A stretch of 32,994 nucleotides of DNA from Pseudoselenomonas ruminantium. GTDB lineage: Bacteria; Bacillota; Negativicutes; Selenomonadales; Selenomonadaceae. The stretch covers positions 1-32,994 of the forward strand of contig CACZIV010000021.1 of NCBI GenBank assembly GCA_902781305.1. Direction: 5' to 3'. The translations under genes and the position numbers were made by a program. A model generated the notes under the pieces. That model did no database searches and was not told where the DNA came from. It saw only the letters and a program-made list of their open reading frames with translations. Shown piece by piece: positions 10,026 to 28,945 of the stretch (positions are counted from its first letter, which is position 1; every line of letters begins with the position of its first letter).

Positions 10026-10086
10026 ATGTACAAAGGGGTACATCGCATTGAGGAACACAAATTCCTGAGTGAGGTGTGCCTTTTTT
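10026..10086 (+). promoter_or_regulatory. candidate transcription attenuator upstream of the anion transporter
   Basis: A long hairpin (arms 10037-10055 and 10062-10080, two mismatches) is followed by six T and ends about 20 bases before the gene, so it is an intrinsic terminator inside the leader. A smaller stem, ATGTAC (10026-10031) with GTACAT (10038-10043), closes a six-base AAAGGG loop. It shares bases 10038-10043 with the terminator's first arm, so the two cannot form together. This is the classic layout of attenuation, but the ligand or factor is unknown. Confidence 0.65.
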
Positions 10087-10106
10087 GCGTGAAAGGATGG
10101 ATGTAA

Positions 10107-11564
10107 ATGAGAAAAAAGATAGGTTTGCCGTTAGGATTATTTACGCTGTTGGTGATACTTTTGTTGCCTACACCACCAGATTTGTCAACAGCAGGACATA
10201 GAATGCTGGCGATATTGGTGTTCTCTGTCGTAATTTGGATGTTTGAAACGGTTTCTTATCCGGTATCTGCTGCAATAATCATCTCGCTTATGGCATTCCT
10301 GCTTGGCACGGCACCGAATATGATGAATCCTGATAAGGTTTTAGGAACTTCCGGAGCACTAAAAATGGCAATGTCGGGATTTTCTAGTCCTGCTCTTGCC
10401 TTGGTAGGGGCAGCGTTATTTATCTCAGCCGCGATGATGAAGACTGGTCTTGATAAACGCTTGGCCTTGTTTATTCTGTCTAAGATTGGTGCCAAGACTA
10501 AAAATGTGCTAGCCGGAGTAATTCTGGTAGGTTTTATCCTAAGTTTTTTTGTCCCCAGCACTACAGCCAGAGTGTCATGTATGGTGCCGATTGTTATGGG
10601 CATCATTGCCGCTTTTGGTGTGCCACTTAAAAGCCGTTTTTCAGCGGTGATGATGATTGCCATCGCTCAGGCTGACAGCATTTGGAATGTTGGGATAAAG
10701 ACGGCAGCGGCGCAGAACATGATTGCGTTGGAATTTATCGAGAAACAGTTGGGGACAACTGTTAGCTGGCTGGATTGGTTTATAACAGCGGCTCCTTTTG
10801 CTGCAATTATGAGCGTGATTTTGTATTTCTTGTTGTTGAAACTTGTACCTCCTGAAATGGATGAGATAGAAGGTGGGCAGGAAACCGTGGCACGGGAATT
10901 GAAAGCGTTAGGCCCGATGACGCTGAGTGAAAAGAAACTGCTGGGAATATCCCTGTTGCTGTTATTTCTATGGTCTACGGAAAAGATATTGCATAACTTT
11001 GATACATCTTCCACGACAATGGCGGCGATAACGGCCATGATGCTTCCAGGGATAGGGATTATGACGTGGAAAGAAGCACAGGCCAAAATTGGTTGGGGAA
11101 CACTGGTGCTGTTTGGTGTAGGAATAAGTCTTGGTTCTGCAGTCCTATCTACCAAGGCTGCAACTTGGATAGCGCATATGATTGTGAATGTATTTGGTCT
11201 GTATCATACGTCTGCTTTTATGATTATAGCTATTCTGGCTATGTTCCTGATTGTGATTCATCTGGGATTTGCTAGTGCAACTGCATTAGCGGCAGCGATG
11301 ATTCCGATTATTATTTCGGTGCTTCAAGGAGCAGCAGAATATTCACATCTTAACGTTGTAGGGATGACACTGATTTTGCAATATGTCATTTGCTTTGGAT
11401 TTATCCTGCCGGTAAATGCTCCACAGAATATGGTGGCTTTCGGTACGGAAACATTTGAGGCAAAGACATTTATAAAGACAGGTATTCCGCTGACCGTAAT
11501 AGCTTATAGCCTCATTATGCTGATGGCGGCAACATATTGGAAGTGGCTTGGAATTATCATTTAG
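10107..11564 (+). CDS. SLC13/DASS-family anion transporter
   Basis: This is a 485-residue inner-membrane protein with about a dozen hydrophobic segments, typical of the DASS (SLC13, CitT-like) family that moves di- and tricarboxylates or sulfate with sodium or by exchange. The N-terminal half contains an STTARVSC-type substrate-region motif near residue 150, and the C-terminal half contains ILPVNAPQNMVAFGT near 440, where the family has its second SNT-type motif. The substrate cannot be told from sequence alone, though C4-dicarboxylates would suit an anaerobe. AAAGGA precedes the ATG. The gene is monocistronic with its own promoter, attenuator-like leader and terminator. Confidence 0.88.
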   Translation: MRKKIGLPLGLFTLLVILLLPTPPDLSTAGHRMLAILVFSVVIWMFETVSYPVSAAIIISLMAFLLGTAPNMMNPDKVLGTSGALKMAMSGFSSPALALVGAALFISAAMMKTGLDKRLALFILSKIGAKTKNVLAGVILVGFILSFFVPSTTARVSCMVPIVMGIIAAFGVPLKSRFSAVMMIAIAQADSIWNVGIKTAAAQNMIALEFIEKQLGTTVSWLDWFITAAPFAAIMSVILYFLLLKLVPPEMDEIEGGQETVARELKALGPMTLSEKKLLGISLLLLFLWSTEKILHNFDTSSTTMAAITAMMLPGIGIMTWKEAQAKIGWGTLVLFGVGISLGSAVLSTKAATWIAHMIVNVFGLYHTSAFMIIAILAMFLIVIHLGFASATALAAAMIPIIISVLQGAAEYSHLNVVGMTLILQYVICFGFILPVNAPQNMVAFGTETFEAKTFIKTGIPLTVIAYSLIMLMAATYWKWLGIII

Positions 11565-11636
11565 GTCTCATAGCTGACTGCAACTGAAGATATCATCCAA
11601 ATGGCTATCAAAATTGTGGGATGATAAGTTTTAATG

Positions 11637-11676
11637 GCTTGGCACATAGTTTATTGGACAATGTGTCAAGCTTTTT
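11637..11676 (+). terminator. terminator of the anion transporter gene
   Basis: GCTTGGCACAT (11637-11647) pairs with ATGTGTCAAGC (11661-11671, one G-T pair), followed by TTTTT. A second stem, TATCATCC with GGATGATA, precedes it at about 11591-11626. Confidence 0.8.
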
Positions 11677-11707
11677 GTGTTGTTGCAGAGCTCCGGTGGT
11701 GTGTGGA

Positions 11708-11971
11708 TTAAAATAAGTCGCATAATTTTTTCGAGTAGAAGAAATTATGCTTCATGGAATAGTATTCAACCCATAGAGGCCTTGTTTTACAAATATCTTT
11801 TCTGGGACACTCCCGATTTCCATCTGCCAGACAAGCAACAGGAGCCAAAGTTCCTTCTATAAGTTCGATAATTTCTCCGACCGTATAGTCCTCTGGTGGA
11901 CGAGACAGTTTATAGCCGCCGCCTTTACCGCTTGTGCCAATAATCAGATGGCTGCGAACTAAATCTTTCAC
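11708..11971 (-). pseudogene. Rrf2-family (IscR-like) regulator, C-terminal fragment
   Basis: The 87-residue frame matches the second half of Rrf2 transcription factors: GGGYKLSRPPEDYTVGEII, then a three-cysteine segment (CLADGNREC, then KDIC) at the site where IscR/NsrR-type members bind an iron-sulfur cluster. A complete protein is about 130-150 residues. The N-terminal helix-turn-helix is missing, because an in-frame TAA lies two codons before the GTG. Without the DNA-binding part it should not work as a regulator. Structured non-coding sequence replaces the missing half, so this is a truncation junction and not a sequencing slip. Confidence 0.75.
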
Positions 11972-11989
11972 AATTTATTCTGTTTGTAG

Positions 11990-12190
11990 GGATAGTCGTT
12001 TGGGCCAATTCCATGCGGAACAGTCTCGTTGACCGGACCTACGGCGTTGCCGCCTGTTACGCTGTTCAATTCCTCGGAATAATTATCGCTTCATGTTCAC
12101 CTTATATCTTTACATCCAGGGCTGAGTATCGACTGATTGCTAGGCTTTATCGAATTCGGAGTTTCACCGAACTATGATTCACTTTAAGTA
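11990..12190 (-). other. structured non-coding segment, possible group II intron fragment
   Basis: No gene is present here, but the sequence is more balanced in base use and folds well on the minus strand. GGCG-GCAA-CGCC (12054-12043) is a stem closed by a GNRA tetraloop, and TTCGG and CCGAA (12155-12159, 12067-12071 arms at 12155-12159 and 12167-12171) close a loop with GAAA. Both are common in domain I of group II introns. I see no GUGYG 5' end, no domain V and no reverse transcriptase, so it would be a relic. It abuts the broken Rrf2 gene. The intron identity is tentative. Confidence 0.3.
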
Positions 12191-12241
12191 TAAAGCGTTG
12201 CTTGCCAGTTAAACAAATAATAATATAGATTTCTACACCTA

Positions 12242-12270
12242 TTGACACAATGGGTGTAAAGTTGTAATAT
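12242..12270 (+). promoter_or_regulatory. strong sigma-70 promoter for the hydrolase-permease operon
   Basis: TTGACA (12242-12247), 17 bases, then TAATAT (12265-12270). Spacing and -10 match those of the anion-transporter promoter. The leader would be about 135 bases long. Confidence 0.8.
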
Positions 12271-12273
12271 AGA

Positions 12274-12357
12274 CACATCGCTAGATGTGGGAACTGACTG
12301 GACAACCAGAGGTTTTGCAGTGGGAGTAGTATTTCCTATGCAAAGCCTCTTTTGTTT
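12274..12357 (+). promoter_or_regulatory. structured leader with terminator before the gamma-glutamyl hydrolase gene
   Basis: Three stems follow the promoter: CACATC with GATGTG (12274-12289), CTGG with CCAG (12298-12309), and a 12-base terminator stem (12308-12319 with 12339-12350, one G-T pair) followed by a T-rich run. The second stem overlaps the terminator's first arm by two bases. This suggests that the operon is controlled by premature termination. No known riboswitch core was recognised. Confidence 0.6.
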
Positions 12358-12416
12358 TAGGATTCCGCAAAGGCGCATGGCTAACGATTTAACTGTATAC
12401 AAGGGAGGTTTGATTG

Positions 12417-13130
12417 GTGAAAAAAATCATCGGCATTGGGGGAAATTTGATGTTTGATGCAGCGGGTATGTTCCCAGGATATCCCCGAGCCTATGTGAAC
12501 CATGATTATGTGGCCGCCGTAAAAGCTGCTGGAGCTGTACCACTGGTTTTGCCGGTTTTGTCTGATGCTGAATGTGTTGAACGACAGCTGTCTGTGGTTG
12601 ATGGCCTGATAATTACCGGCGGCTATGATGTAAATCCGTTGCTGTTTGCGGAGGAGCCACATAAGTTATTGGGAGAAACACTCAAGGAAAGGGATGATTT
12701 TGACCTGCTATTAATAAAAACAGCAAGACGCTTGGGACTGCCGGTACTGGGCATTTGCCGTGGCCTGCAAATACTGAATGTAGAAGCGGGGGGAAACTTA
12801 TATCAGGATTGCAGCGAAGATGATAAATGTTATGTCAGACACTGGCAGGGCAGTAATCCTGCGCAGGCTACCCATACGGTTTCGATTTTGGAGGACTCAT
12901 GGCTGTATTCTATATTTGGAACTAAAACTGAAACCAATTCCTTTCATCACATGTCCATAAAGAAAATTGCTGACAGGTATAAAGCAGTTGCTTGGGCGGC
13001 TGATGGGACTGTCGAGGGCATTGAGTCAGTGGAGGGCCCGTTTGCAGCAGGCGTGCAATGGCACCCGGAGATGATGCATCGGCAGGAAAAGATGCTTGCT
13101 TTGTTCAAATCGTTTGTGTCTAAGACATAA
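12417..13130 (+). CDS. gamma-glutamyl-GABA hydrolase family (peptidase C26) protein
   Basis: This is a 237-residue class-I glutamine-amidotransferase-fold hydrolase related to PuuD. The nucleophile Cys is in GICRGLQ (C114), the oxyanion region is TGGYDVNP, and the catalytic His-x-Glu is in QWHPEM near residue 214. Such enzymes release glutamate from gamma-glutamyl amines. The GTG at 12417 is chosen because GGGAGG (12403-12408) is spaced 8 bases from it; a TTG one codon earlier is possible. It is followed 25 bases later by an amino-acid permease, so the pair may import and process a gamma-glutamyl or amine compound. No other putrescine-pathway gene is present. Confidence 0.85.
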   Translation: MKKIIGIGGNLMFDAAGMFPGYPRAYVNHDYVAAVKAAGAVPLVLPVLSDAECVERQLSVVDGLIITGGYDVNPLLFAEEPHKLLGETLKERDDFDLLLIKTARRLGLPVLGICRGLQILNVEAGGNLYQDCSEDDKCYVRHWQGSNPAQATHTVSILEDSWLYSIFGTKTETNSFHHMSIKKIADRYKAVAWAADGTVEGIESVEGPFAAGVQWHPEMMHRQEKMLALFKSFVSKT

Positions 13131-13155
13131 TATTTGCTTGTAGAGGGGGATTTTT

Positions 13156-14496
13156 ATGGTAAGAGAGAAATTTGGCTTTTGGAGTATAGTTTTGTTGGGG
13201 ATTAACGCTATCATCGGTTCAGGCATTTTCCTGCTTCCCAACAAGGCGTACGCGCTGTCCGGCAGTTATTCTTTGCTGGTTATTCTGTTTGATGCTTTTC
13301 TGGCGATTTCACTGGCTTTGTGCTTTGCAGAACTAAGCGGTTTATTCACGCGTAATGGTGGCCCTTATATTTATGCCAAGGCAGCTTTTGGCAACTTCAT
13401 CGGTTTTGAGGTTGGCTTTATGAAGGCTGCTATCAGTATTATTGCCTGGGCGGCGATGTCCAATGGTTTTGCTACGGCATTAGCCGCTATATATCCAGAG
13501 GCTGGGATACCTTTGGTGAAAAACTTCATCATTGTGCTCCTTATGGGCTCTTTAGGACTTATGAATATTTTTGGCGTAAAATTGTCTAAAGCTGTGAACA
13601 ATCTGGTAACAGTGGGGAAATTGTTGCCGTTGGTTCTGTTTATTGCGGCAGGATTGTTCTGCCTTCAGGGCAATAATCTCGAATTTGGCACGGCGGCTGC
13701 GGCAACTGAAGATTTTTCCTTTGGTGCAGCTGCGTTGTTGATATTCTACGCATTCACGGGTTTTGAGGCCATTGCTGAAGCGGCAGAGGATATGGAAAAT
13801 CCCAAGAAAAATCTGCCACGCGCAATCGTTATGGTCATGTTGGTCGTATCGGTATTTTATTTCTTGATACAGACGGTTTCCATTGGTGTTTTGGGGGCAG
13901 GATTAAGTGAGACTAAGACGCCGATTGCGACGGCAGCAGCTTATATTTTTGGCCCGGTTGGTTTGGCATTGGTAACTGCTGGCACGTTAGTATCCATCGG
14001 CGGCATCAACATGGCTTCATCTTTTTTGACCCCCAGGGTAATTGTCGCTATTGCTGATGATAAAATGCTGCCGCCGGTTTTATCGCGTTATAGCCGTTGG
14101 GGGACACCGTATGTGGCGATTATATTTTCTACGGTTGTGGGCATACTGATTGCGCTGTCCGGCTCGTTCACGACCTTGGCCGCTATCAGCGTGGTTTCCC
14201 GTTTTGCCCAGTATCTACCCAGCTGCCTGGCTGTTTTGGTTCTGCGCCGCCGTCACCCGGAAGCGCCAAGCTCTTTGCAAGCGCCATTTGGGCCGCTGTT
14301 CCCTGTAGTTTCCATTGCTGTTAGTATTTGGCTGCTTTTGCAGGCAGATATAGATAAGATCATCTTTGGCCTTGGGGGACTGGCAGTAGGTATACCTTTT
14401 TACTTTTTGATGAAAAAACAATACCTGTCCAAGCAGGGGGAAAATGAACAAGATAATGATGAAGGCGTTCCCGTAGAGAGCACAGCAGGTAGATAA
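13156..14496 (+). CDS. APC-superfamily amino acid permease
   Basis: This is a 446-residue inner-membrane protein with about twelve hydrophobic segments. It starts with the family signature FGFWSIVLLGINAIIGSGIF, in which the unwound first helix binds the amino acid backbone, and has the conserved GFEAIAEAAEDMENPKKNLPRAI region after helix 6. It ends in a short acidic cytoplasmic tail. The substrate is unknown; amino acids or polyamines are typical. It is the second gene of a two-gene operon with the gamma-glutamyl hydrolase and has its own GAGGGGG ribosome binding site. Confidence 0.88.
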   Translation: MVREKFGFWSIVLLGINAIIGSGIFLLPNKAYALSGSYSLLVILFDAFLAISLALCFAELSGLFTRNGGPYIYAKAAFGNFIGFEVGFMKAAISIIAWAAMSNGFATALAAIYPEAGIPLVKNFIIVLLMGSLGLMNIFGVKLSKAVNNLVTVGKLLPLVLFIAAGLFCLQGNNLEFGTAAAATEDFSFGAAALLIFYAFTGFEAIAEAAEDMENPKKNLPRAIVMVMLVVSVFYFLIQTVSIGVLGAGLSETKTPIATAAAYIFGPVGLALVTAGTLVSIGGINMASSFLTPRVIVAIADDKMLPPVLSRYSRWGTPYVAIIFSTVVGILIALSGSFTTLAAISVVSRFAQYLPSCLAVLVLRRRHPEAPSSLQAPFGPLFPVVSIAVSIWLLLQADIDKIIFGLGGLAVGIPFYFLMKKQYLSKQGENEQDNDEGVPVESTAGR

Positions 14497-14576
14497 AGAA
14501 CTGTATTGGAGCTTGGGCAAGAGACAAAGCATCTAAGAAATAGACGGTTGGCTGACATATAGACGTGCTTCGATGG

Positions 14577-14690
14577 TATAATTTGCATCTATAGCTATTG
14601 TCTGTGTATTGAGGTTTTTTTAATAGGGAGTCCTATAAAAGGCTAATACAGGGGATGTTGCACGATTTTCTTACGTGCAACATCCCTTTT
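14577..14690 (+). ncRNA. short transcript unit: -10 box plus strong terminator (small RNA or leader)
   Basis: A TATAAT box lies at about 14577-14582 with only a weak -35 (TGACAT, 18 bases upstream). About 70 bases later a perfect 13-base stem (14652-14664 with 14674-14686) is followed by TTTT. The product would be about 100 nt and has no open frame. It may be a small RNA or the terminator of the upstream permease operon. The rest of the 328-base gap (14497-14824) has only a weak promoter, listed next. Confidence 0.45.
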
Positions 14691-14717
14691 GTCGTTGGTG
14701 AGGCAGGTATTTGTTAG

Positions 14718-14746
14718 TTGAAAATTGAATTATACAGAAGTAATTA
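14718..14746 (+). promoter_or_regulatory. weak candidate promoter of the secreted-protein gene
   Basis: TTGAAA (14718-14723), 17 bases, then TAATTA (14741-14746), about 80 bases before the ATG at 14825. Confidence 0.35.
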
Positions 14747-14824
14747 GGATGTGTTCATCGTGAGTATTTTTAGTGGATTGATTGTCCATACATTTGAGAT
14801 CGATGTTAAGGAGGCGAAAAAGGA

Positions 14825-15229
14825 ATGATGATGACGTGGAAAAAAATTAAAAGAATATTGTGTATCGTTTCTTTGGTGCTAGGTTTGATGATGTTGCCCA
14901 ACGGCCAGCAGATCGAAGCTGCGGATGTTTGGGTAGCCCATTGGAACAGTGAAGGAATCGATGTTTATGTCATGGATGATACATTGTCACATGGAACGAG
15001 CTCAACTGGACGCTGGTTCTCAATCTCTACCAAAATGGTGAAAAATGGCCGTTTGAAAGAGGTCATCACCTGGAATTACAGCAAATACCAGACGGATATG
15101 TGGCGTTACCAGACAAATACCATGGATCGGAGCCATGATACCGTTGTTTCGCCTGGGGACAAAGTGTTTGCTTATGGCATGAACAGGATTGGCTGGCCTT
15201 ATGAGGTTCGTGAATTCTGGGTATACTAA
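14825..15229 (+). CDS. small secreted protein
   Basis: This is a 134-residue exported protein with a signal peptide (MMMTWKK followed by a Leu/Val core) and probable cleavage near EAA-DV at residues 32-34. The mature part has an IDVYVMDDT element, a central Tyr/Trp-rich segment and a C-terminal GMNRIGWPY stretch. Its layout resembles the two NGDRN-motif proteins at 510-908 and 3993-4514 (a D-x-[ST][ST]-like site, paired beta strands, a GW before the end), though it lacks NGDRN. Three ATG codons are in a row; the first is best placed relative to AAGGAGG at 14808-14814. It lies just before a LytTR/GHKL two-component system, which could regulate it. Confidence 0.75.
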   Translation: MMMTWKKIKRILCIVSLVLGLMMLPNGQQIEAADVWVAHWNSEGIDVYVMDDTLSHGTSSTGRWFSISTKMVKNGRLKEVITWNYSKYQTDMWRYQTNTMDRSHDTVVSPGDKVFAYGMNRIGWPYEVREFWVY

Positions 15230-15325
15230 ACGAGTTACGAGGGAAAATGCATAAAGCTGCTTGACGCTGGCTGACACGCATTATCGTCATTCGCACCGCA
15301 AACCGTGCCGTTCACTCCCTAGCCA

Positions 15326-15355
15326 TTGAAACTTCCGTCTTATAATCGCTATAAT
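15326..15355 (+). promoter_or_regulatory. promoter of the two-component operon
   Basis: TTGAAA (15326-15331), 18 bases, then TATAAT (15350-15355). A second TATAAT lies at 15341-15346 but is too close to the -35. Confidence 0.6.
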
Positions 15356-15392
15356 GTATCATGGTGACTAATAGACAAGGGAGACTTGAACT

Positions 15393-16127
15393 GTGAGAAT
15401 AAAAATCGCTGTTTGCGATGGTGATAAAGAAGTATGTCGCTATATTGCCGAAATCATCGCCAGGCAAAAGCCTGAGGTGTTGGTGAAGACGTTTTACACA
15501 GCGGAATCACTGTTGCAGGATAGGGATGACTATGATATTTACTTTCTGGACATCAAGGATGTCAACGGCATGGAGACTGCCCGCATCCTTCGTTCCCGTG
15601 AACAGGGCCTGCATAGCATCATCATCTTTGTGACAGGCTATCGGGAGTATATGCCTGCCGCCTTTGATGTGCAAGCTTTTCATTATTTGCTCAAGCCCAT
15701 CGACAAGCTGAAATTTGCCAAGGTGCTCGAAAATGCCTGTCTGGAAGCCAGCTATCTGCAAGCACAAAAGGAAGATTATGTGCTGCTGAAGCTCAACGGT
15801 TCGGTCGGAGATTTGCGCAGCCGCCGCAAGGTGTCCCTGCAGGATATTTACTTCATTGAGAGCAACAACAAGAATGTCATTGTCCATACCACTGAAGGCA
15901 CTTATGAAGTGCAGGGGAAAATGGACGAATTTGAAAAGTCTTTGGGCACAGGCTTTTATCGGTGTCATCGGTGCTACCTGGTGAATCTAGCCCAAATTTC
16001 GGCTTACAGCCCGGAAGGAATTCAGGTGACCAATGGCGAAAGGGTTATGTTGGCAAATAAGAAATATGCGGCTTTTGTTAAAGCATATTTACATTATGCC
16101 AAGAGAGGCGGCATTGTAAATGTTTGA
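15393..16127 (+). CDS. LytTR-family response regulator
   Basis: This 244-residue regulator has a receiver domain (about 1-120) and a LytTR DNA-binding domain (about 135-240). The acidic pocket is at D9/D11 and the phospho-acceptor is D53 in YFLDIKD; the conserved Lys is K101 in LLKPID. LytTR regulators of the AgrA/ComE class control peptide signalling, bacteriocins and surface functions. Start is GTG, with a GGGAG ribosome binding site just upstream. The last 8 bases overlap the kinase gene, so the two are translated together. No precursor-peptide gene or peptide exporter is visible nearby. Target sites were not identified. Confidence 0.9.
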   Translation: MRIKIAVCDGDKEVCRYIAEIIARQKPEVLVKTFYTAESLLQDRDDYDIYFLDIKDVNGMETARILRSREQGLHSIIIFVTGYREYMPAAFDVQAFHYLLKPIDKLKFAKVLENACLEASYLQAQKEDYVLLKLNGSVGDLRSRRKVSLQDIYFIESNNKNVIVHTTEGTYEVQGKMDEFEKSLGTGFYRCHRCYLVNLAQISAYSPEGIQVTNGERVMLANKKYAAFVKAYLHYAKRGGIVNV

Positions 16128-17589
16128 GCAGTATTTGATGGATGTTTTTGTTTACGGAGCTTTGGGATACTTGAGTTTCCGCTATGCAGAAACAATTTTG
16201 ACCGGTCAATTTTCCCGGCGCGGTTTGGTTCTGACAAGCTGGATTATTCTTTATACGGCCGGCAGTCTTGTTGGGCGTTTCGGGCTGGATTACGCCCCTA
16301 TGGGCGAAAACAGCGTTTACGGAGGATTTCTCCATATTTTGCCCGGTGCATTGCTTCTGCTTTGTTTGCAAAAAAAATATTTCCCTACCAACTGGCCGAG
16401 GCAGTTATTTGCCTTGGCTAGTTTTATTGCCGGCTGGGCGGTGTTGCGCTTTACGGTAAGCCCGCTGTCCTATGTGCTCTTTGATTATTGGAATCCCTTT
16501 TGGACATGGCTGGTGGACTACAGCCTGGCGCAGGGATGGATGACAGCAGAACAGCTGCTGGGGGTTATGGGGATTATCAATGATGCAGCCCTTATGGCGG
16601 TGTTGGCTTTTTGCCGTCTGGTGCAGCTGGGGATTCTGACGCTGTATCTTTGGCTTATCCAAAAGTTTTTCTGTGGGCGGGATTATGAATTATCATGGAC
16701 GGAAAGTCTGTTCCTGCTGGCCCCCTGCGTAACGGTGCTGGCTATAGATGCAACCCTGCGGGCAATGGCATACTCTGTGGATAACAGCGCGCTGATGTTG
16801 GTTTACTATCGGGTGCCTGAAACACTGCTGCTTTTGCCATTGGTCAGTCTGCTTCTGCTGGGCATGATGATTACGGCAGTCCGGTTGTTTCACGGCATAG
16901 TACAGTTCAAAGAGTCTGAAGCGAAACGGCTGCTATTGGAAAACGGCATAAACGATATTCATCGACAGGTGGAGGAAATGCAGGATATTTATGGCGATAT
17001 GCGTGGCTTGCGGCACGATTTGCGGGGACATATTGAGAGTTTGACCGCATATGTGCATAATCATCTGCAAGGGAAACATACGCAAATAGAAGATTATCTG
17101 GCACAAATGACCAAGACAACACAGCGATTGGACTTTGCGGATAAGACGGGTAATCCCATCACAGACATCATTCTGCACCAGATTCGCCAGCAGGCGAAAA
17201 GACAGGGAATTGTCCTTACGGCTGACTTCCATTATCCTGCGCAGGCGCCTTTTGACCTATACGATATCAGCGTTATCCTCAATAACGGCCTGAAAAATGC
17301 CCTGGAGGCTTGTGGCAAAATGCCGCCGCCCGCAGAGGTAGAAGTTCGTTCTTATAGCAAGGGAAATCTATACTTTATCGAAATCGTCAATGATTTTGCA
17401 GGAGACTTAATCTGGAATAAGGAGAACGACCTTCCGTGTACCACCAAGGAAGATAAACAGCGACATGGCATAGGCCTTATGAATATTGCCCGCTGTGCGG
17501 AAAAATATCGAGGCAGTATGGAAGTCGAAGTGGTACAAAAAGAAAACCGCCAGCGCTTTTGTCTGACGGTCATGCTATTATTGAGATAG
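16120..17589 (+). CDS. GHKL sensor histidine kinase (AgrC-like)
   Basis: This is a 489-residue inner-membrane kinase. Residues 1 to about 265 hold six or more hydrophobic segments with no recognised extracellular ligand domain. A coiled-coil linker follows. The H-box is GLRHDLRGHIE, with the phospho-accepting His at 299. The N-box is LNNGLKNALEA (388-398) and the G-box is HGIGLMNI (449-456). It pairs with the LytTR regulator that overlaps its start. The many membrane segments suit sensing of a peptide or membrane state. Its 3' end overlaps the convergent thioredoxin-fold gene by 12 bases. Confidence 0.9.
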   Translation: MFEQYLMDVFVYGALGYLSFRYAETILTGQFSRRGLVLTSWIILYTAGSLVGRFGLDYAPMGENSVYGGFLHILPGALLLLCLQKKYFPTNWPRQLFALASFIAGWAVLRFTVSPLSYVLFDYWNPFWTWLVDYSLAQGWMTAEQLLGVMGIINDAALMAVLAFCRLVQLGILTLYLWLIQKFFCGRDYELSWTESLFLLAPCVTVLAIDATLRAMAYSVDNSALMLVYYRVPETLLLLPLVSLLLLGMMITAVRLFHGIVQFKESEAKRLLLENGINDIHRQVEEMQDIYGDMRGLRHDLRGHIESLTAYVHNHLQGKHTQIEDYLAQMTKTTQRLDFADKTGNPITDIILHQIRQQAKRQGIVLTADFHYPAQAPFDLYDISVILNNGLKNALEACGKMPPPAEVEVRSYSKGNLYFIEIVNDFAGDLIWNKENDLPCTTKEDKQRHGIGLMNIARCAEKYRGSMEVEVVQKENRQRFCLTVMLLLR

Positions 17590-20328: not shown

Positions 20329-20331
20329 GTC

Positions 20332-22327: not shown

Positions 22328-22600
22328 ATGACAATGCATGAATTGATTTACTGGTATTTAGCGATAATCAATATTGTTGTTCTGGTTGTCTATGGCGGAG
22401 ATAAGCTCTTTGCCAAGCTGGGCAGCTGGCGCGTGCCGGAAAAAATATTGCTGCTGTTTGCCTTGCTCGGCGGCAGTGTTGGTGCGTTGCTGGCCATGCA
22501 GATTTTCCGGCATAAGACACGCCATCTGAAATTCCGTTATGGCGTGCCATTGATTTTACTGTTGCAGATAGCAGGCGTTGTATACCTGCATTGGCAATAG
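22328..22600 (+). CDS. DUF1294 small membrane protein
   Basis: This is a 90-residue inner-membrane protein with three hydrophobic segments. The family pattern is clear: YGGDKLFAK, then WRVPEKILLLFALLGGSVGALLAM, then FRHKTRHLKF. ATG at 22328 is preferred over an in-frame GTG at 22319 because GAGAGG lies about nine bases before it. The function of the DUF1294 family is unknown. It is transcribed behind a leader with a terminator, which suggests conditional expression. Confidence 0.85.
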   Translation: MTMHELIYWYLAIINIVVLVVYGGDKLFAKLGSWRVPEKILLLFALLGGSVGALLAMQIFRHKTRHLKFRYGVPLILLLQIAGVVYLHWQ

Positions 22601-22660
22601 ACGGTTATTGTGTTAGGCAGCTGGAATCAGAATGTTGGTGCTGCTTTAATGTTTGGGCAG

Positions 22661-23368
22661 TTAAGGCTGGACGAATGGATGAATCTGCGGTTGAATTTTA
22701 AAGACATCAACAATTAATTCACGCTCGTTGCGTTCATTAATGTAGGCAAGAACATGCTTTTTGCTGATTACAGCGGTTAAGAGCTGACCTTGGCTGCCGC
22801 TTTCGTAGCGTTTTTTGAACCATGTAGCGATGGTTTGGTCTGCAGTCCAGGATAGTCCGAACTTTGCCCTGTGCGGGCTGACACCACGATAAATCGTCAG
22901 CGTATCGGGAAGTTTCTGGTAATGGGCAAGGTCCTCAGGTGTCATCAGGAATTGCTTATCTGCCTGCCGGAAATAGTGGATAACTTCCTCGCGGCTGACT
23001 TGTGGGTCTTGATTGGGGTCTTCCTCATCCAGCCAGCTGTGCTTGAGATAATAGGCAAAGTCCTCAGGGCTCATATAATCTTTGCATAGCTGAAACCAGG
23101 TGAGTTTATAGTCGTCGAGAATCAGGTCATAGATAAACGGCAGGCTAAGGCTGTTTATCCTGTTCAGGATAAAACGGCGATAAAAAGTATAGCTGTTCGG
23201 TGTAGAAATATCCAGCCATTTTTTCTGCTCATGATGATAGAAGAAAATCGACTTGGCAAAGGGATGACAGACGGCACCCATATTTTCGATAGCTTTGACC
23301 GGAATGAGGGGCGCTGTATCAAAGAGCTTTATGGTCTGTTCCCGGATTTTGGTGAGATTTGTCTGCAT
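22661..23368 (-). CDS. ADP-ribosyltransferase-like protein
   Basis: This is a 235-residue cytoplasmic protein. The C-terminal 80 residues look like an ADP-ribosyltransferase of the R-S-E type: Arg in TIYRG (R161), an S-x-T-like strand in GLSWTAD (173-177), and an E-x-E in NERELIVD (E215, E217). The N-terminal 150 residues are helical and not recognised. Similar short 'YRG...LSWT' proteins occur in phages and bacteria, but activity is not shown for this one. GGAAGGA precedes the ATG. It lies divergent from a nicotinamidase-like gene, and ADP-ribosylation releases nicotinamide, so the pairing may be meaningful. Confidence 0.6.
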   Translation of the reverse strand: MQTNLTKIREQTIKLFDTAPLIPVKAIENMGAVCHPFAKSIFFYHHEQKKWLDISTPNSYTFYRRFILNRINSLSLPFIYDLILDDYKLTWFQLCKDYMSPEDFAYYLKHSWLDEEDPNQDPQVSREEVIHYFRQADKQFLMTPEDLAHYQKLPDTLTIYRGVSPHRAKFGLSWTADQTIATWFKKRYESGSQGQLLTAVISKKHVLAYINERNERELIVDVFKIQPQIHPFVQP

Positions 23369-23523
23369 GATGTTGTCCTTCCTTATAATTAAGCGGATAA
23401 TAATAGATTTTCCATTTTTCCCTGGATAATCCTGCTGATTTACAGAAGATAATCGGTGAGCATAACATTTTTATGGTATAATAATGACAAATTCGTGTAT
23501 TCGTTAGGGGAGGTCTATAACGT

Positions 23524-24045
23524 ATGAAAAAAATTATTGTTGTAGTAGACATGCAGAATGATTTTATTGACGGCAGTTTGGGGACGGCGGAAGCACAGGA
23601 AATGCTGCCGCGGCTGAAAGAGAAGCTGAAGCAGGTGACGGACAATGGTTCGGCTGAGCTTATTTTTACCATGGATACGCATGGTGAAAATTATCTGCAG
23701 ACGCAGGAGGGGAAAAATCTGCCTGTGGAGCATTGCCTAAAGGGCAGTCATGGTTGGGAGATTACACCGGAACTGCAGGAATTTGTTAAACAGGCTAAGG
23801 CTGTAGTGGAAAAGCCGACGTTTGGTTCGCTGGATTTGCCTAAACTGCTTGGCGAGACAGATGAAGTGGAACTGGTAGGGCTTTGCACAGATATTTGTGT
23901 CATCAGCAACGCGATGGTGATTAAGGCGGCTTATCCGGAAGTGCAAGTAAGCGTGGATGCAAGCTGCTGTGCCGGAGTTACGCCCGAAAGCCATAAAAAT
24001 GCTCTGGCCGCCATGAAGATGTGTCAGATTAAGGTGCTTGAATAA
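23524..24045 (+). CDS. isochorismatase/nicotinamidase-family cysteine hydrolase
   Basis: This is a 173-residue cytoplasmic hydrolase. The catalytic triad is visible as D9 (VDMQNDF), K97 (VEKPTF) and C125 (LCTDICV). Metal-site residues of nicotinamidases are partly present: DTH at 51-53 and a VEHC His at 70, while the third His of the usual set is not obvious. Nicotinamidase (PncA) converts nicotinamide to nicotinate in NAD salvage; other amide substrates are possible. A TATAAT box lies at 23477-23482 and GGGGAGG is 10 bases before the ATG. A terminator on the opposite strand lies just after it. Confidence 0.8.
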   Translation: MKKIIVVVDMQNDFIDGSLGTAEAQEMLPRLKEKLKQVTDNGSAELIFTMDTHGENYLQTQEGKNLPVEHCLKGSHGWEITPELQEFVKQAKAVVEKPTFGSLDLPKLLGETDEVELVGLCTDICVISNAMVIKAAYPEVQVSVDASCCAGVTPESHKNALAAMKMCQIKVLE

Positions 24046-24070
24046 AAAAGGCCACACAGTAATGCGGCCT
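24044..24070 (-). terminator. minus-strand terminator of the hydE operon
   Basis: Reading the minus strand, AGGCCGCA pairs with TGTGGCCT (one mismatch), followed by TTTTTT. It overlaps the stop of the methyltransferase gene and may act in both directions. Confidence 0.75.
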
Positions 24071-24668
24071 ATGGATGTACCTTATAGATGAGTAGTTTTT
24101 CGCGGGAATCTTTGCCGTTGCTGATACCGCAGCAATCGAGACTGTCAACCAGTGTTAGCTGGGATATAGTCGTCAAATAATCAGTGTATGCTTTAGACGG
24201 ATAGTAGAAAAATAGGAGAATCTCCCGCGGAAATTCTCGGCAGGATGCCAGCAAATTCATCATGACTGTCCGTAAAATATCCGTAGAAAACGGATTAAAG
24301 AAAAATGCTCGGTCAGCATATTGGGGGACGGCAAAATCCGTTGCATCCTGTTGTACAATAGTGACTAAATGCCCACGGCAAGCCCTGTCCTTATTGGTCA
24401 GGGCTTTTTCGTATAAGCGGGGATTGTATTCCACCCCGATAGAGCGGCACTTGGTCTGGCTGGAAAGGAAGAAACTCACACGTCCTTTGCCGCAGCCATA
24501 ATCAATCAAGGTATTATTCTTGCGTATCAAGCCGGTATTGGCAACCTGCTCCAATACGCTGTAATCTGTTGGCTCGTAAGGGTAGCGGGTAAAATCGGAA
24601 ATGGTATCGTCACGTCCGGTGGTTTTGATATTCAGCAGGCGGTCCCATTCCTGTTCGTAATCGGTCAT
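24069..24668 (-). CDS. class I SAM-dependent methyltransferase
   Basis: This is a 199-residue cytoplasmic enzyme. The SAM-binding motif is LIDYGCGKGRVSFFL (about 54-68), followed by the acidic GVEYNP at the end of strand 2 and a later FFFNPFS strand in the position of motif IV. The substrate is unknown. Its ATG overlaps the stop of hydE by four bases (ATGA), so the two are translationally coupled. Coupling with a hydrogenase maturase is unusual and may point to a link, though it may simply be operon packing. Confidence 0.85.
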   Translation of the reverse strand: MTDYEQEWDRLLNIKTTGRDDTISDFTRYPYEPTDYSVLEQVANTGLIRKNNTLIDYGCGKGRVSFFLSSQTKCRSIGVEYNPRLYEKALTNKDRACRGHLVTIVQQDATDFAVPQYADRAFFFNPFSTDILRTVMMNLLASCREFPREILLFFYYPSKAYTDYLTTISQLTLVDSLDCCGISNGKDSREKLLIYKVHP

Positions 24669-25723
24669 GTTTTTGGTGTTCCTCTCTTGTTGGGATGGTC
24701 GCCACGGTTGACGACAATGTTATAGCCGGTTGATTCCACGCGGGCGGCTAAACAGCGGATACACTCTGCCGCCTCTTCGCCAGTGCAGATTTTATTGTCA
24801 TAGAGCGCGTATTTTTTGCGGACTGCAGTCGGTGAAAGATTAGGCATGAGTACATTGGCGCCGGCAAGCAGCCCCTTTTCCCGTCCTTTCGTATCAATTG
24901 TGCCCAAAGCAGTAGTGGCAGGCAGCAGCACATTCGGCAAAAGCAGGCGGATAATGGAGAGCAGGCGCAAGGTCATAGCGACTGTGCCGCCCGCCTCCTG
25001 CGCAAAGGGCGTATCATGTTGGGGAATAAACGGGCCGATTCCGACCATTTCCGGCTGGAGCTCCTGTAAAAGACGCAAATCCTGGATTAAATGTTCTGTC
25101 GTTTGTCCCGGCGAACCAACCATCATGCCACAGCCGACCTGATAGCCGATGGCTTTTAAGTCGTGCAGGCATTGTAGACGATGGTTATAGGACATTTCAG
25201 CAGGGTGCAGCTGCTCATAATGGGCTTTATTGGCCGTTTCATGGCGGAGTAAGTAGCGGTCAGCACCGGCGTGGAATAAGCGCTGATAACTTTCCTTGCT
25301 TCGCTCGCCAATAGACAAGGTTATGGCACAATCCGGATGGCGCTGTTTGATTTCCTGCAGCAGCGCACAGAGCCGTTCGTCTGTAAAGTATGCATCCTCA
25401 CCGCCCTGCAGGACAAAGGTGCGAAAGCCCAGCTGATAGCCTGTGTCACAGCAAGCTAAAATCTGCTCGGCGGTCAAACGGTAACGCTGTGCATTTGGAT
25501 TGTCACGGCGTATGCCGCAGTAATAGCAGTTATTGCGGCAGTAATTGGTAAATTCGATTAATCCCCGGATGTATACGTCTTTACCGTAATAACGTTCGCG
25601 AAGTTTGCGGGCACGCTGAGCAAGTTCGGCATCATCTGCAGGCGATGCCGATTTCAGTAGTGCCATAAATTCTTCATCCGAAAGATTGTGTGTAAGTTCT
25701 AGTTTGTCCATTATTGCCCGCAT
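24665..25723 (-). CDS. hydE: [FeFe]-hydrogenase maturase HydE (radical SAM)
   Basis: This 352-residue radical-SAM enzyme has the normal HydE length. The cluster-binding CxxxCxxC motif is CRNNCYYC (C62, C66, C69), directly after GLIEFTNY. A GGE-type SAM motif (VLQGGEDAY) and the LLRHETAN segment typical of HydE follow. HydE works with HydF and HydG to build the H-cluster of [FeFe] hydrogenases. No hydF, hydG or hydrogenase gene lies in this window, so the partners must be elsewhere. GGGGAGG precedes the ATG by seven bases. It leads a two-gene operon with a methyltransferase. BioB- or PylB-like relatives are less likely. Confidence 0.9.
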   Translation of the reverse strand: MRAIMDKLELTHNLSDEEFMALLKSASPADDAELAQRARKLRERYYGKDVYIRGLIEFTNYCRNNCYYCGIRRDNPNAQRYRLTAEQILACCDTGYQLGFRTFVLQGGEDAYFTDERLCALLQEIKQRHPDCAITLSIGERSKESYQRLFHAGADRYLLRHETANKAHYEQLHPAEMSYNHRLQCLHDLKAIGYQVGCGMMVGSPGQTTEHLIQDLRLLQELQPEMVGIGPFIPQHDTPFAQEAGGTVAMTLRLLSIIRLLLPNVLLPATTALGTIDTKGREKGLLAGANVLMPNLSPTAVRKKYALYDNKICTGEEAAECIRCLAARVESTGYNIVVNRGDHPNKRGTPKT

Positions 25724-25797
25724 ATGGAAACCTCCCCTGTGGGTTAAGCGGTTGTGAAAAGGATTATGGTCAGCAGCGTAGAATATGGTAGAATATA

Positions 25798-25995
25798 TTA
25801 GAGGAGCATATTGTTTGCGGCATCACTGAGGGCAATAAGCACCAACAGCACCGTAATGCCGCCGATTAAATATTCTGCACAGCCTAAAAGATTTTTGGAC
25901 TGCCAGTGACTTTTTACATTAGCCCAGACGACTTCCAAAGTGATAAACAGAGCGATAAAGCAAACGATGTTGATGATGTAACGTAAAATTTCCAT
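25798..25995 (-). CDS. small membrane protein
   Basis: This is a 65-residue protein with two hydrophobic segments (about 2-24 and 42-62) separated by a short basic loop, so it should sit in the inner membrane with a helical hairpin. No family is recognised. The ATG at 25995 is preferred because AAAGGAGC precedes it. The longer frame up to 26067 has no ribosome binding site and would overlap the start of nudC. It is divergent from nudC, with about 50 bases between the two starts. Confidence 0.65.
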   Translation of the reverse strand: MEILRYIINIVCFIALFITLEVVWANVKSHWQSKNLLGCAEYLIGGITVLLVLIALSDAANNMLL

Positions 25996-26045
25996 AATGG
26001 ATAAAGCTCCTTTGAATGCTAATGGTTTGGAGATGATTTGATAAC

Positions 26046-26882
26046 ATGATTCACGAAATACAGCCACATAAACTGAACAACGTATTTGTTGCAGGCCGAA
26101 AACCCGCAGCTGGTGATATCGTAATCTGCGTAAAAGAAGATAGTTTAATGGTAAGCGAGCTTGAGGGGAATGTCAAGTTTCCGACCTGGCAGGAACTGCT
26201 GGAAACACTGGATTATCAATATTTATTCAGCTTAGATACGCAAGGCGTGTTTTATCTTCTGCAAGAGGGCAGAGAACCATTGCCCGGATTTACCTATAAG
26301 ACTTTACGCGAAATCCGCTATGAAATTGGAGCTCCGTTGCAGCTTATGTATATGATGTATACGGCGTGGCATCTTATCTGCTGGTATCGGGATAATCGTT
26401 TTTGCGGGCGGTGCGGCAGTCATACCAGGCATTCAACACGGGAGCGGGCACTCATCTGTGATAAATGCGGCAACAGGATTTATCCGCGCATTGTTCCTGC
26501 GGTAATTGCCGGTGTAATCTGGGAGGATAAGATTTTGCTGACCAAATATGCCCATCGCAAAATGTCCTTTTACGCATTGATTGCGGGTTTTACGGAAATC
26601 GGTGAAACCTTGGAGGAATGCGTTGCCCGCGAAGTTATGGAGGAAACCGGGCTGAAGGTCAAAAATATCCGCTATTACAAATCCCAGCCCTGGGGCAGTG
26701 TGCAGGACTTAATTGTGGGCTTTTACTGTGATGTAGATGGTGATACCCATATTCATATTGACAAAAGTGAGCTGAAAGAAGGCGTATGGGTTTCGCGAGC
26801 GGAAATCGAAGGTCAGCGGGATGACTGGAGTCTGACCAATCATATGATGATGGCCTTCAAAGCCGGTAAAGAACCACATTGA
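26046..26882 (+). CDS. nudC: NudC-type NAD+/NADH pyrophosphatase
   Basis: This 278-residue protein has the full NudC layout. A four-Cys zinc ribbon (C120, C123, C138, C141) is followed by a perfect Nudix box (G181 x5 E187 x7 R195-E-V-M-E-E-T-G-L203). NudC cleaves NAD(H) to NMN(H) and AMP and can remove NAD caps from RNA. The SQPW motif that follows the box is present at 213-216, but the usual PFPxS continuation is replaced by GSVQD, which may change substrate preference. No good ribosome binding site is seen; a GGAGATG lies about 14 bases upstream. The next gene begins 20 bases after its stop. Confidence 0.88.
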   Translation: MIHEIQPHKLNNVFVAGRKPAAGDIVICVKEDSLMVSELEGNVKFPTWQELLETLDYQYLFSLDTQGVFYLLQEGREPLPGFTYKTLREIRYEIGAPLQLMYMMYTAWHLICWYRDNRFCGRCGSHTRHSTRERALICDKCGNRIYPRIVPAVIAGVIWEDKILLTKYAHRKMSFYALIAGFTEIGETLEECVAREVMEETGLKVKNIRYYKSQPWGSVQDLIVGFYCDVDGDTHIHIDKSELKEGVWVSRAEIEGQRDDWSLTNHMMMAFKAGKEPH

Positions 26883-26902
26883 TGGATGAGGAGTGAATAG
26901 TC

Positions 26903-27667
26903 ATGCGTAAAAAATTTTGGTCAAAAACAATCGCCGCCTGCTTGCTGACCAGTGCGCTGAGTATGGGGACGACGGCTGCTGCCGATACGGATGAGGTTCG
27001 TGTAATTCCCTACCCGGCCGAATTGGATACCAAAACCGAAGGCGCATCTTCGGCACCGGCAGAGATAAATCATGCCGATTCGCCTTACTTCAAGCATTTG
27101 GATATCTATGAACTGGAAACCATTATCGGCCGTCGCATTGTACTGCCGCATTATCCGACCTACCAACAGTCCCGGGAATATACCTGTGGGCCAGCAGCTG
27201 CCCTTACGGTGCTTTATTGGTATGGCAATAAGGATTATGATGAACTGTCCCTGGCTAAAGCAATGAAAACACAGGGCTATCCCATTGGCACAAGTATGAA
27301 GAACATGGTGAACTTCTTCAAAGGTATCGGCTGGACGGTAAAAAGCGGCTTGAACGCAGATAAATTCAGCCGTTTTGATGACTTTCGTACTTTTTTGATG
27401 GAGCCGCTGGCCCACGGACGGCCGATTTTGGTGGAAAATGTAGAGTGGGGCGGCCACTGGCGGGTGATTATCGGCTATGACAACATGGGCACAGAATCGC
27501 CTTTGGATGATATGCTCATCTTTGTTGACCCCTACGATACCTGTGACCATTATCAGGATGGCTATACTGTAGGAAATGCCACAAAATTCTTCTCCATGTG
27601 GTTTGACCATTCCATGCTGCCCAAGAAAGAACGTTATCAGCCGTGGATTATTGCCTATCCGAAATGA
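26903..27667 (+). CDS. secreted C39-like cysteine protease
   Basis: This is a 254-residue exported protein. A signal peptide (MRKKFWSKTIAACLL) ends near AAA-DT at residue 27. The papain-like C39 core has the nucleophile C95 in REYTCGPAAALTVLYWYG, a His at 185 in GGHWRVIIGYD, and an Asp at 209 in FVDPYD. The family includes double-glycine leader peptidases and stand-alone secreted proteases. There is no ABC transporter attached, so it probably works in the periplasm or on the surface. Its substrate is unknown. It is co-transcribed with nudC. Confidence 0.8.
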   Translation: MRKKFWSKTIAACLLTSALSMGTTAAADTDEVRVIPYPAELDTKTEGASSAPAEINHADSPYFKHLDIYELETIIGRRIVLPHYPTYQQSREYTCGPAAALTVLYWYGNKDYDELSLAKAMKTQGYPIGTSMKNMVNFFKGIGWTVKSGLNADKFSRFDDFRTFLMEPLAHGRPILVENVEWGGHWRVIIGYDNMGTESPLDDMLIFVDPYDTCDHYQDGYTVGNATKFFSMWFDHSMLPKKERYQPWIIAYPK

Positions 27668-27722
27668 GGGTGTCATCATTATTTGACCATACTTGCCAGG
27701 CTTTTTTATTGGAGGATTTTTA

Positions 27723-28751
27723 TTGCAAGTACTTTTTACGTTAGTTGTTGGAATATGCGGCGGATTTATTCTATCCATTGTCAATGCGCCGCTGCCATGG
27801 ACATTAGGGCCGGTATTAGCCGTCTCGCTCACTTCATTATTGCTTAAACGACAGTTAATATGGCCTTTGTTTCTGCGTAATATCGCGTTGATTCCATTGG
27901 GGTACTCTATGGGACGCCCGTTTACCGTTGAAACAGGGCATGCTATACTAAGCCAACTGCCATTTATGTTAATGGCTACATTCGTCACAATTTGTGCAGG
28001 GCTTTTCTCTGCGTGGCTGATGTATCGCCGGACGGACATTGATTTGAGCAGTTGTCTTTTAGGATGCGTCCCTGGGGGGCTTTCGCAAATGGTTATTTTA
28101 GCAGCGGAACTGAAGGAAACGGACCTGACTGCCGTTACAATCATGCAAACCTTACGAATGTTGTCCGTAGTGTTTGTTATCCCTTTTCTAGCGATTCATG
28201 TTCTCCCTGCTGAAGGAGCATCTGCGCATCTCATAGAAAATGAACCTACAGGTGATATCCTGATGTATGCTATTGTAGCAGTAGCCGGTGCTGTAATAGG
28301 CAGGCTGATAAAACTGCCCACAGCAAATTTGCTGGGGCCATTGCTTGCTACGGCTCTTTACATTGTAAGTTTTGGTCATACGGCACCAATTATTCCTCAG
28401 CATTATCTCTATGCGGCACAAGTCTGTGTTGGAAGTTATATTGGCAGTAGTATAGACCTAAGAAAGATTCGTGAGTATAACGGTATGGGACCAGTGCTGC
28501 TTGGAAGCGTCCTGCTGGTTCTGGCAGTCTCTATGGTGATGGGCTGTGTGATAGCTTTTTGTACGCCGTCCTCGATTACGACGAGCTTCTTGTCAACAGC
28601 ACCAGGCGGCTTGGCAGAGATGGGGATAACCGCGTTAACGGTAGGAGCCGACAGCTCAACAATGACGGCTTATCAGCTGACAAGATTGTTATTTATCATG
28701 CTGATATTTCCTTATGTGGCACGCTTTATTCGACGTAGATTTGGCAAATAG
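27723..28751 (+). CDS. AbrB-family (PF05145) membrane protein
   Basis: This is a 342-residue inner-membrane protein with about nine to ten hydrophobic segments. It has the family's internal duplication: CVPGGLSQM near residue 120 and TAPGGLAEM near 295, each followed by a polar helix that starts before a Leu/Arg-rich segment. Members of this AbrB family (unrelated to the AbrB DNA-binding protein) are thought to be transporters or permeases of unknown substrate. TTG at 27723 is chosen because GGAGG is at 27711-27715, and an in-frame TTG ten codons earlier has no ribosome binding site. Confidence 0.8.
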   Translation: MQVLFTLVVGICGGFILSIVNAPLPWTLGPVLAVSLTSLLLKRQLIWPLFLRNIALIPLGYSMGRPFTVETGHAILSQLPFMLMATFVTICAGLFSAWLMYRRTDIDLSSCLLGCVPGGLSQMVILAAELKETDLTAVTIMQTLRMLSVVFVIPFLAIHVLPAEGASAHLIENEPTGDILMYAIVAVAGAVIGRLIKLPTANLLGPLLATALYIVSFGHTAPIIPQHYLYAAQVCVGSYIGSSIDLRKIREYNGMGPVLLGSVLLVLAVSMVMGCVIAFCTPSSITTSFLSTAPGGLAEMGITALTVGADSSTMTAYQLTRLLFIMLIFPYVARFIRRRFGK

Positions 28752-28768
28752 TGTGCAATTTTTATTAC

Positions 28769-28797
28769 TTGACACTGGATTGGCAATATGCTATTGT
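28769..28797 (+). promoter_or_regulatory. sigma-70 promoter for a short leader or small RNA
   Basis: TTGACA (28769-28774), 17 bases, then TATTGT (28792-28797). The -35 and spacing are the same as the promoters at 9957 and 12242. Confidence 0.7.
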
Positions 28798-28812
28798 AAA
28801 TTTATCAATAGT

Positions 28813-28856
28813 GGCAAAGGAGCCCAGGCGAAATATAGGTTCGTCTGGGCTTTTTT
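28813..28856 (+). promoter_or_regulatory. AAAGGN-loop stem nested in a terminator (leader element 1)
   Basis: GGC (28813-28815), the loop AAAGGA (28816-28821) and GCC (28822-28824) form a short stem. The 3' side of this stem is the start of a 12-base terminator stem (28821-28832 with 28840-28851, one G-T pair) followed by TTTTTT. The product from the promoter at 28769 would be about 50 nt, so it may be a small RNA or an attenuated leader. Confidence 0.55.
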
Positions 28857-28897
28857 ATACCCTTGGATAGCTGCTGTTGGTAATATATTGGTATTGC

Positions 28898-28945
28898 AGG
28901 ACAAAGGTGTCCTAAATCATTGTTTTATGGTTTAGGACGCCTTTT
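28898..28945 (+). promoter_or_regulatory. AAAGGN-loop stem nested in a terminator (leader element 2)
   Basis: AGGAC (28898-28902), the loop AAAGGT (28903-28908) and GTCCT (28909-28913) form a perfect stem. GTCCT also belongs to the first arm of the next hairpin (28906-28916 with 28931-28941), which is followed by TTTT. This second element lies 80 bases after the first and about 30 bases before the gene at 28976. Confidence 0.55.

Follow-up and report, generated by a model that had tools for sequence, protein, structure and literature searches.

What is a small hairpin with a six-base loop doing inside three intrinsic terminators, and what could read it? The question is raised by a stretch of 32,994 nucleotides (nt) of Pseudoselenomonas ruminantium (contig CACZIV010000021.1, assembly GCA_902781305.1), referred to here as the window. 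It carries three such leaders, one ahead of a DASS-family anion transporter gene (site 1) and two in tandem (sites 2 and 3) ahead of a gene for a 131-amino-acid (aa) protein of unknown function. They are very probably attenuators that respond to a protein with an ANTAR domain, and represent a variant that lies close to the promoter, lacks P1, the first of the two hexaloops of described ANTAR targets, and is found mostly at nitrogen genes.

Three hairpins nested in terminators

On direct reading of the sequence the three hairpins were found exactly where the first-pass annotation of this DNA had placed them, together with the two TTGACA-N17 promoters that it had described upstream (Table 1; site 2 lies 15 nt past the -10 box). 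The minimum-energy fold also bore out its statement that hairpin and terminator exclude each other: at all three sites the terminator supplants the hairpin and consumes its 3' arm and bases of its loop, which at sites 1 and 3 pairs with CCUUU of the terminator. The terminator energies were -27.4, -24.3 and -25.9 kcal/mol for sites 1, 2 and 3, and forcing the small stem cost 12.3, 11.0 and 15.2 kcal/mol respectively. Since forming the small stem leaves the leader 11-15 kcal/mol less stable than with the terminator, read-through would need something that stabilizes this stem. The stem of site 2 has only 3 base pairs (bp) and is unremarkable on its own (z -0.44).

All three loops have an A at the first and a G at the fourth position (A1/G4), and all three stems have at least 3 bp and overlap an intrinsic terminator. 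An A1/G4 hexaloop on a short stem nested in a terminator is how the antiterminator site of ANTAR proteins is described in PMC3369931 and PMC8934654. The first-pass annotation knew of no named element with this core; actually, it corresponds to the second half (P2) of the described ANTAR-target RNA. That it went unnamed is understandable because no Rfam family matches (zero matches above the gathering score in the window and eight related loci), and a riboswitch was discarded on the same result. The sequences of the sites also appear to fit the single-hexaloop minimal binding motif (Walshe 2022), in which one G4 hexaloop is enough for binding by the ANTAR protein (PMC8934654).

Conservation in the leaders of relatives

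We compared leaders across 121 genomes of the family, 89 of them with an ANTAR domain (88 above the cut-off). The sets were those of DASS orthologues (30 loci of 42 genomes), of the 131-aa protein (30 of 39), of glutamine synthetase in 30 hand-picked genomes (16/32 without ANTAR and 14/89 with it) plus the window's own genome, and of the ammonium transporter within the genus (13/16 matches, leaving out L176 at a contig end and the weak L188 and L189). One of the 16 glutamine synthetase leaders from ANTAR-negative genomes contained Ns and was excluded, leaving 15, and the second copies in G058, G070 and G092 were left out of that set. All hexaloop hairpins with a downstream U run were counted, without preselecting the loop, and 100 shuffles were made.

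An A1/G4 hexaloop followed by a U run was present in 24/30 DASS leaders (shuffle mean 2.0), 21/30 leaders of the 131-aa protein (1.1), all 13 ammonium-transporter leaders (0.7) and 13/15 glutamine synthetase leaders of ANTAR-positive genomes (1.0). The glutamine synthetase leaders of ANTAR-negative genomes gave 2/15 (0.6). Among distinct hexaloop hairpins, A1 and G4 occurred together in 65/162 from ANTAR-positive leaders, in 6.5% from shuffled leaders and in 1/13 from ANTAR-negative genomes. Comparative support for the elements is far above chance. At the DNA level four of the 121 genomes, all of the same genus, match most of the site 1 leader (98, 94, 72 and 67% identity), and five more match just 19-49 bases of it.

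Where the hairpin occurs, a C-G pair mostly closes a loop with A1 and G4, giving C-[ANNGNN]-G, and the other loop bases vary (GGC-AAUGGA-GCC, GUGC-AAUGGC-GCAC, GAUGC-AACGUC-GCAUC, GAGAC-AAAGGC-GUCUC or AUGC-AACGAG-GCAU). A few leaders (L083, L092, L152) have a G at the first position. The AAAGGN core proposed before thus holds for the three sites, but the rule conserved across relatives is ANNGNN. In some leaders of the 131-aa protein the terminator takes, by eye, the 5' arm of the hairpin and not the 3' arm; the hairpin is retained nonetheless. CsrA-type motifs carry GGA in the loop, and this reading was rejected since many of the conserved loops (AACGAA, AATGAA, AACGUU) are without GGA.

Covarying homologues in related genomes, on which the first-pass annotation had staked its proposal of recurrent attenuators, were found. 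In 21 distinct DASS hairpins four of the five stem pairs vary on both sides, with 35 cells changed on both sides vs 11.2 in shuffles and a covariation score of 0.776 vs 0.252. Changed pairs numbered 4 vs 3.5 and additional pair types 9 vs 9.4, neither of them in excess over shuffles. In 16 ammonium-transporter hairpins the score was 0.302 vs 0.149. The percentage paired is in part given by construction because the hairpins were chosen by pairing and loop.

Genes behind the element

In the window's own genome a nested hexaloop was also found before glutamine synthetase (L063) and an ABC transporter ATPase (L066). The pattern GCAANGRNGC followed by T5 had 28 matches there vs 8 for the control, and the candidates kept on reading were only site 2 and these two; L058, which precedes a gene that by eye is uvrA, and L062 were set aside because they looked ordinary or unclear. 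The ammonium-transporter leader of the same genome (L228) has GGAC-AACGUU-GUCC and then GGAC-AAAGGC-GUCC in series, each by eye with its own terminator, the same arrangement as at sites 2 and 3.

In relatives the element precedes operons of a kinase and an ANTAR protein (L134, L135, L137, L138 and L140, the kinase being identified by Pfam for L134 and L135 and by eye for the others). It is also found before an Amt-PII fusion in L137 and, in the near-identical stretches L134 and L138, before an ethanolamine permease (TIGR00908 above cut-off in L134) that lies between the ANTAR gene and EutA, the next gene in L138. By analogy with EutV, the permease is of a known target class. These cases come from ten stretches, most of them picked for a pattern match near an ANTAR gene, and L141-L143 were too short upstream to be tested. 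The ANTAR-adjacent proteins of L136 and L137 were considered as glutamate synthase and rejected (no Pfam match in either, and none in NCBIfam for L137). The putative targets related to nitrogen metabolism are the leaders of glutamine synthetase, ammonium transporter and ethanolamine permease/EutA; ammonium transporters and glutamine and glutamate synthases have already been published as targets of ANTAR RNAs in other bacteria, where most targets are nitrogen genes (PMC3369931).

The ANTAR protein and its co-occurrence with the element

In the window's genome (88.6% complete) one ANTAR domain was found (PF03861, E 1.5e-21), in a receiver-ANTAR protein adjoining a PdtaS-like kinase with GAF_PdtaS and HisKA_2 domains. 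The protein has its best match in 1s8n (E 4.6e-58), which we take to be Mycobacterium Rv1626, and aligns with EutV (6wsh/6ww6) at E 1.9e-46. The four residues holding G4 in EutV, R142, K149, E160 and Y164 (PMC8934654), are identical in it, and likewise K143, M172 and R175. In the 360 nt upstream of its operon the sole A1/G4 hexaloop, GUUCC-AAUGGC-GGAAC (L044), lies some 330 nt ahead of where the kinase gene starts.

Across the family, GGCAAYGRNGCC followed by T5 was present in 79/89 ANTAR-positive vs 11/32 ANTAR-negative genomes, with 273 and 28 matches (33 and 5 for the reversed-pattern control), totals in which a site is counted again for every longer U run. Among the matches listed, in a hand-picked count of one row per site, 52/89 sites of ANTAR-positive and 3/12 of ANTAR-negative genomes were nested in a terminator. 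Two of these three look coding by eye and the third is in G106, of genus g7, where 7/11 genomes have ANTAR. Actually, four of the 11 ANTAR-negative genomes with a match (G046, G077, G106, G111) are from genera whose other members have the domain. In genus g9, with ANTAR in 0/13 genomes, the pattern was found in 1/13. Furthermore, all 42 genomes with a DASS orthologue (E 1e-100; 42/121) and all 39 with a homologue of the 131-aa protein (E 1e-5; 39/121) are ANTAR-positive, associations whose probabilities ignore phylogeny.

The first hexaloop

In published ANTAR targets a first hexaloop, P1, is followed by a second, P2, with linkers of 5-12 nt between them in the E. faecalis eut leaders (PMC3369931), and actinobacterial ANTAR-target RNAs have dual stem-loops with linkers of 2-25 nt (PMC8164766). 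When the P1-P2 linker was changed, antitermination by EutV failed or dropped (PMC3369931, PMC8934654). Sites 2 and 3 were rejected as one canonical P1-P2 pair, being 73 nt apart with a full terminator between them. We searched for a P1 before the first hexaloop of each leader, a promoter being predicted for 82 of the 84 elements. An A1/G4 candidate was found in just 3/82, and in 32/82, judged from the predicted promoters with starts 5-8 nt past the -10 box, the transcribed stretch ahead of the hairpin leaves no room for a P1 (20/22 leaders of the 131-aa protein, 8/13 of the ammonium transporter and four others). The hairpin lies 11-25 nt past the predicted -10 box in 42/49 leaders of glutamine synthetase, ammonium transporter and 131-aa protein.

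The -10 box and the hairpin are 40-47 nt apart in 21 of the 24 DASS leaders for which a promoter was called. Five of the DASS leaders (L148-L150, L154 and L156) have in this space an AU-rich hairpin, such as GCUAUA-9 to 10 nt-UAUAGC, with a loop that is not conserved, which may be a degenerate P1. The search is able to detect a P1 because it flags a 10-bp hairpin with an AACGGC loop upstream of the terminator-nested P2 in a glutamine synthetase leader of G045 (L136, 1400-1500). This leader is a textbook dual-hexaloop ANTAR target and provides a contrast from within the same family. A P1-like hairpin in the ABC transporter leader of the window's genome, UCUUA-AGAAAA-UAAGA, fits A1 and not G4.

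How the leaders might work, and the alternatives

Without a signal, the nascent leader would by default fold into the intrinsic terminator and transcription would end ahead of the gene. A signal would lead the kinase, which has a PdtaS-type GAF domain, to activate or phosphorylate its receiver-ANTAR partner, and the phosphorylated protein would grip the A1/G4 hexaloop as this leaves the polymerase, with Arg, Lys, Glu and Tyr holding G4 in the manner of EutV. The bound hairpin would withhold the bases that the terminator needs and the polymerase would read on. Of the two hairpins of described targets, only the counterpart of P2 would be present, a short way past the transcription start. Sites 2 and 3, like the two elements of the ammonium-transporter leader, would form consecutive gates, and the need to pass both would reduce basal expression. 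The anatomy of the elements, their conservation and covariation and their occurrence together with ANTAR genes and nitrogen genes are seen in the sequences; binding by the protein, the direction of control, the signal and independence from P1 are inferred. The first-pass annotation had suggested that a factor or a small molecule binding the loop decides read-through; a factor is indeed the likely switch, and this ligand would most likely be a protein and not a small molecule.

The eut leaders of E. faecalis share with these elements the A1/G4 hexaloop, a stem of at least 3 bp and a hairpin nested in the intrinsic terminator, and the EutV system also has a receiver-ANTAR protein with a kinase partner and nitrogen-related targets. 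They differ in that the Selenomonas elements are without a P1 hexaloop, lie near the promoter and form tandem units of hairpin and terminator, with a DASS transporter and the 131-aa protein among the probable targets. Actinobacterial ANTAR-target RNAs have A1/G4 hexaloops and a PdtaR/PdtaS-like protein pair (PMC8164766), but are dual stem-loops for which control of translation is reported, whereas here single hairpins lie inside intrinsic terminators. The nasF leader with NasR and the amiE leader with AmiR (PMC3369931) also place a hexaloop beside a terminator under control by an ANTAR protein, as proposed here, and differ in being described as single-locus systems with dual hexaloops and other sensor domains.

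Several observations weigh against the ANTAR-responsive attenuators proposed. No A1/G4 P1 precedes sites 1 and 2, so that the dual hexaloop of published targets is absent, and 9/30 leaders of the 131-aa protein and 6/30 DASS leaders lack the A1/G4 hairpin by the rule used. In the ANTAR protein of the window's genome, among the 11 EutV residues that contact RNA, K147 is replaced by R and three differ (R168Q, N173Q, R177P), and its operon has no A1/G4 hairpin near its start (360 nt upstream examined). In genus g13 only 1/12 genomes has a match to ANTAR, a weak one, yet the pattern is found in 5/12, and genus g30 (G030, G052), with no ANTAR domain detected, retains GGC-AGCGUU-GCC before glutamine synthetase. 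Independent contrasts are few because the presence of ANTAR tracks genera and the contrasts were made without a tree; we count about four lineages, three for and one against.

The strongest competitor is that these are ordinary dual-hexaloop ANTAR targets whose P1 is degenerate or was missed, as an AU-rich hairpin with a non-consensus loop, or through a start further upstream than predicted. The room ahead of the hairpin in most DASS leaders, the AU-rich hairpins that several of them hold there and the textbook P1 of G045 speak for it, but candidates for P1 are rare and more than a third of the elements would have no space for one, and we regard it as rather unlikely. A different reader of the hexaloop (another RNA-binding protein, a small RNA or a metabolite) would account for the hairpin kept in genus g30. 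It appears improbable, given the co-occurrence with ANTAR, the sites before ANTAR operons and eut genes, an A1/G4 loop equal to the published site and the retention of the residues contacting G4.

Least credible of all is that the sites are ordinary terminators in which A-rich sequence paired to the U run happens to mimic an AAAGG loop. Single sites of this type do arise by chance: ACAANGNNGT..TTTT had 72 matches in the window's genome vs 96 for the reversed control, and two nested-looking matches inspected had no same-strand gene behind them, one being between convergent genes and the other between two opposite-strand genes. The pairing of the loop with CCUUU at sites 1 and 3 would also be expected. 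In a scan of both strands of the window for A1/G4 hexaloops competing with a downstream fold six were found. Two of them are sites 1 and 2, a further two are weak (-3.0 and -2.5), and the last two, at -16.8 and -25.5, are minus-strand hairpins whose folds do not look terminator-like by eye; site 3 is absent since the scan halted at an earlier T run. However, orthologous leaders keep the hexaloop while stems covary and terminators diverge, and the 13 to 24 leaders per family vs 0.7 to 2.0 in shuffles already contradict an origin by chance.

Other features of the window

The genes downstream of the sites are those given by the first-pass annotation, an anion transporter and a protein with zero matches in Pfam or NCBIfam (Table 1). 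Close relatives of the latter on named contigs are all from Selenomonas, four of the five from S. ruminantium, a rumen commensal. In genus g25 (L025-L029, L031) the 131-aa gene lies behind a gene of the same orientation, which in L025 looks by eye like an alanine-type sodium symporter, and lacks its own A1/G4 hexaloop leader. The symporter gene that follows it in the window is possibly co-transcribed with it.

Table 1 Position of the attenuators, their promoters and the associated genes in the window
Feature	Position	Strand	Basis
Predicted sigma-70-type promoter of site 1	9957..9985	+	TTGACA-N17-TAATAT
Site 1, A1/G4 hexaloop hairpin AUGUAC-AAAGGG-GUACAU, proposed ANTAR site	10026..10043	+	sequence (ATGTAC-AAAGGG-GTACAT), orthologous leaders, covariation
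Site 1 intrinsic terminator, excludes hairpin; U run 10081-10086	10032..10086	+	fold
DASS-family sodium-coupled anion symporter, 485 aa, behind site 1	10107..11564	+	PF00939 E 1e-108; TIGR00785 above cut-off
Predicted sigma-70-type promoter of sites 2/3	28769..28797	+	TTGACA-N17-TATTGT
Site 2, A1/G4 hexaloop hairpin GGC-AAAGGA-GCC	28813..28824	+	sequence, leader comparison
Site 2 intrinsic terminator; U run 28851-28856	28816..28856	+	fold
Site 3, A1/G4 hexaloop hairpin AGGAC-AAAGGU-GUCCU, second of tandem	28898..28913	+	sequence (AGGAC-AAAGGT-GTCCT), leader comparison, same tandem in own ammonium-transporter leader
Site 3 intrinsic terminator	28903..28945	+	fold
131-aa protein of unknown function, predicted to be governed by sites 2/3	28976..29371	+	no family match
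Sodium:solute symporter family protein, next gene downstream	29484..30878	+	PF00474 E 6e-11

A further leader (12242-12360) has a TTGACA-N17-TAATAT promoter, the hairpins CACATC-GCTA-GATGTG and CTGG-ACAA-CCAG and then a terminator, the first arm of which shares bases with the second hairpin. It precedes a hydrolase-like gene, by eye presumably a gamma-glutamyl-GABA hydrolase, and an amino acid permease, and looks like an attenuator of a different kind, with loops that do not fit the A1/G4 hexaloop. On the minus strand, an open reading frame (ORF) like an IS3-type transposase (5768-6700) overlaps by eye with its C-terminal part the end of an ATPase-like ORF of the other strand (4644-6005), a possible insertion or truncated element, and an Rrf2-family regulator (11708-11971) covers only profile positions 44-129, its N-terminal third apparently missing.

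Significance for a proposed nitrogen-control circuit in Selenomonas

The novelty of these leaders lies in the variant without P1, and not in a new riboswitch. In the open-licence PMC literature we found no paper mentioning both ANTAR and Selenomonas, and the supplementary hit tables of PMC3369931 may include some of these leaders. The elements are now named and tied to a probable regulator. They give a concrete case for a published question, how far ANTAR sites with a single hexaloop act, on which PMC8934654 calls for more work. They point to a nitrogen-control circuit of Selenomonas and its relatives, of which the anion transporter and the 131-aa protein are probable members. We incline, with some reserve, to a family-wide and largely nitrogen-related ANTAR regulon with natural single hexaloops behind the promoter, often as two gates. 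If this is true, the recruitment hairpin P1, regarded as necessary for antitermination, could be dispensed with at sites placed at a transcript's 5' end.

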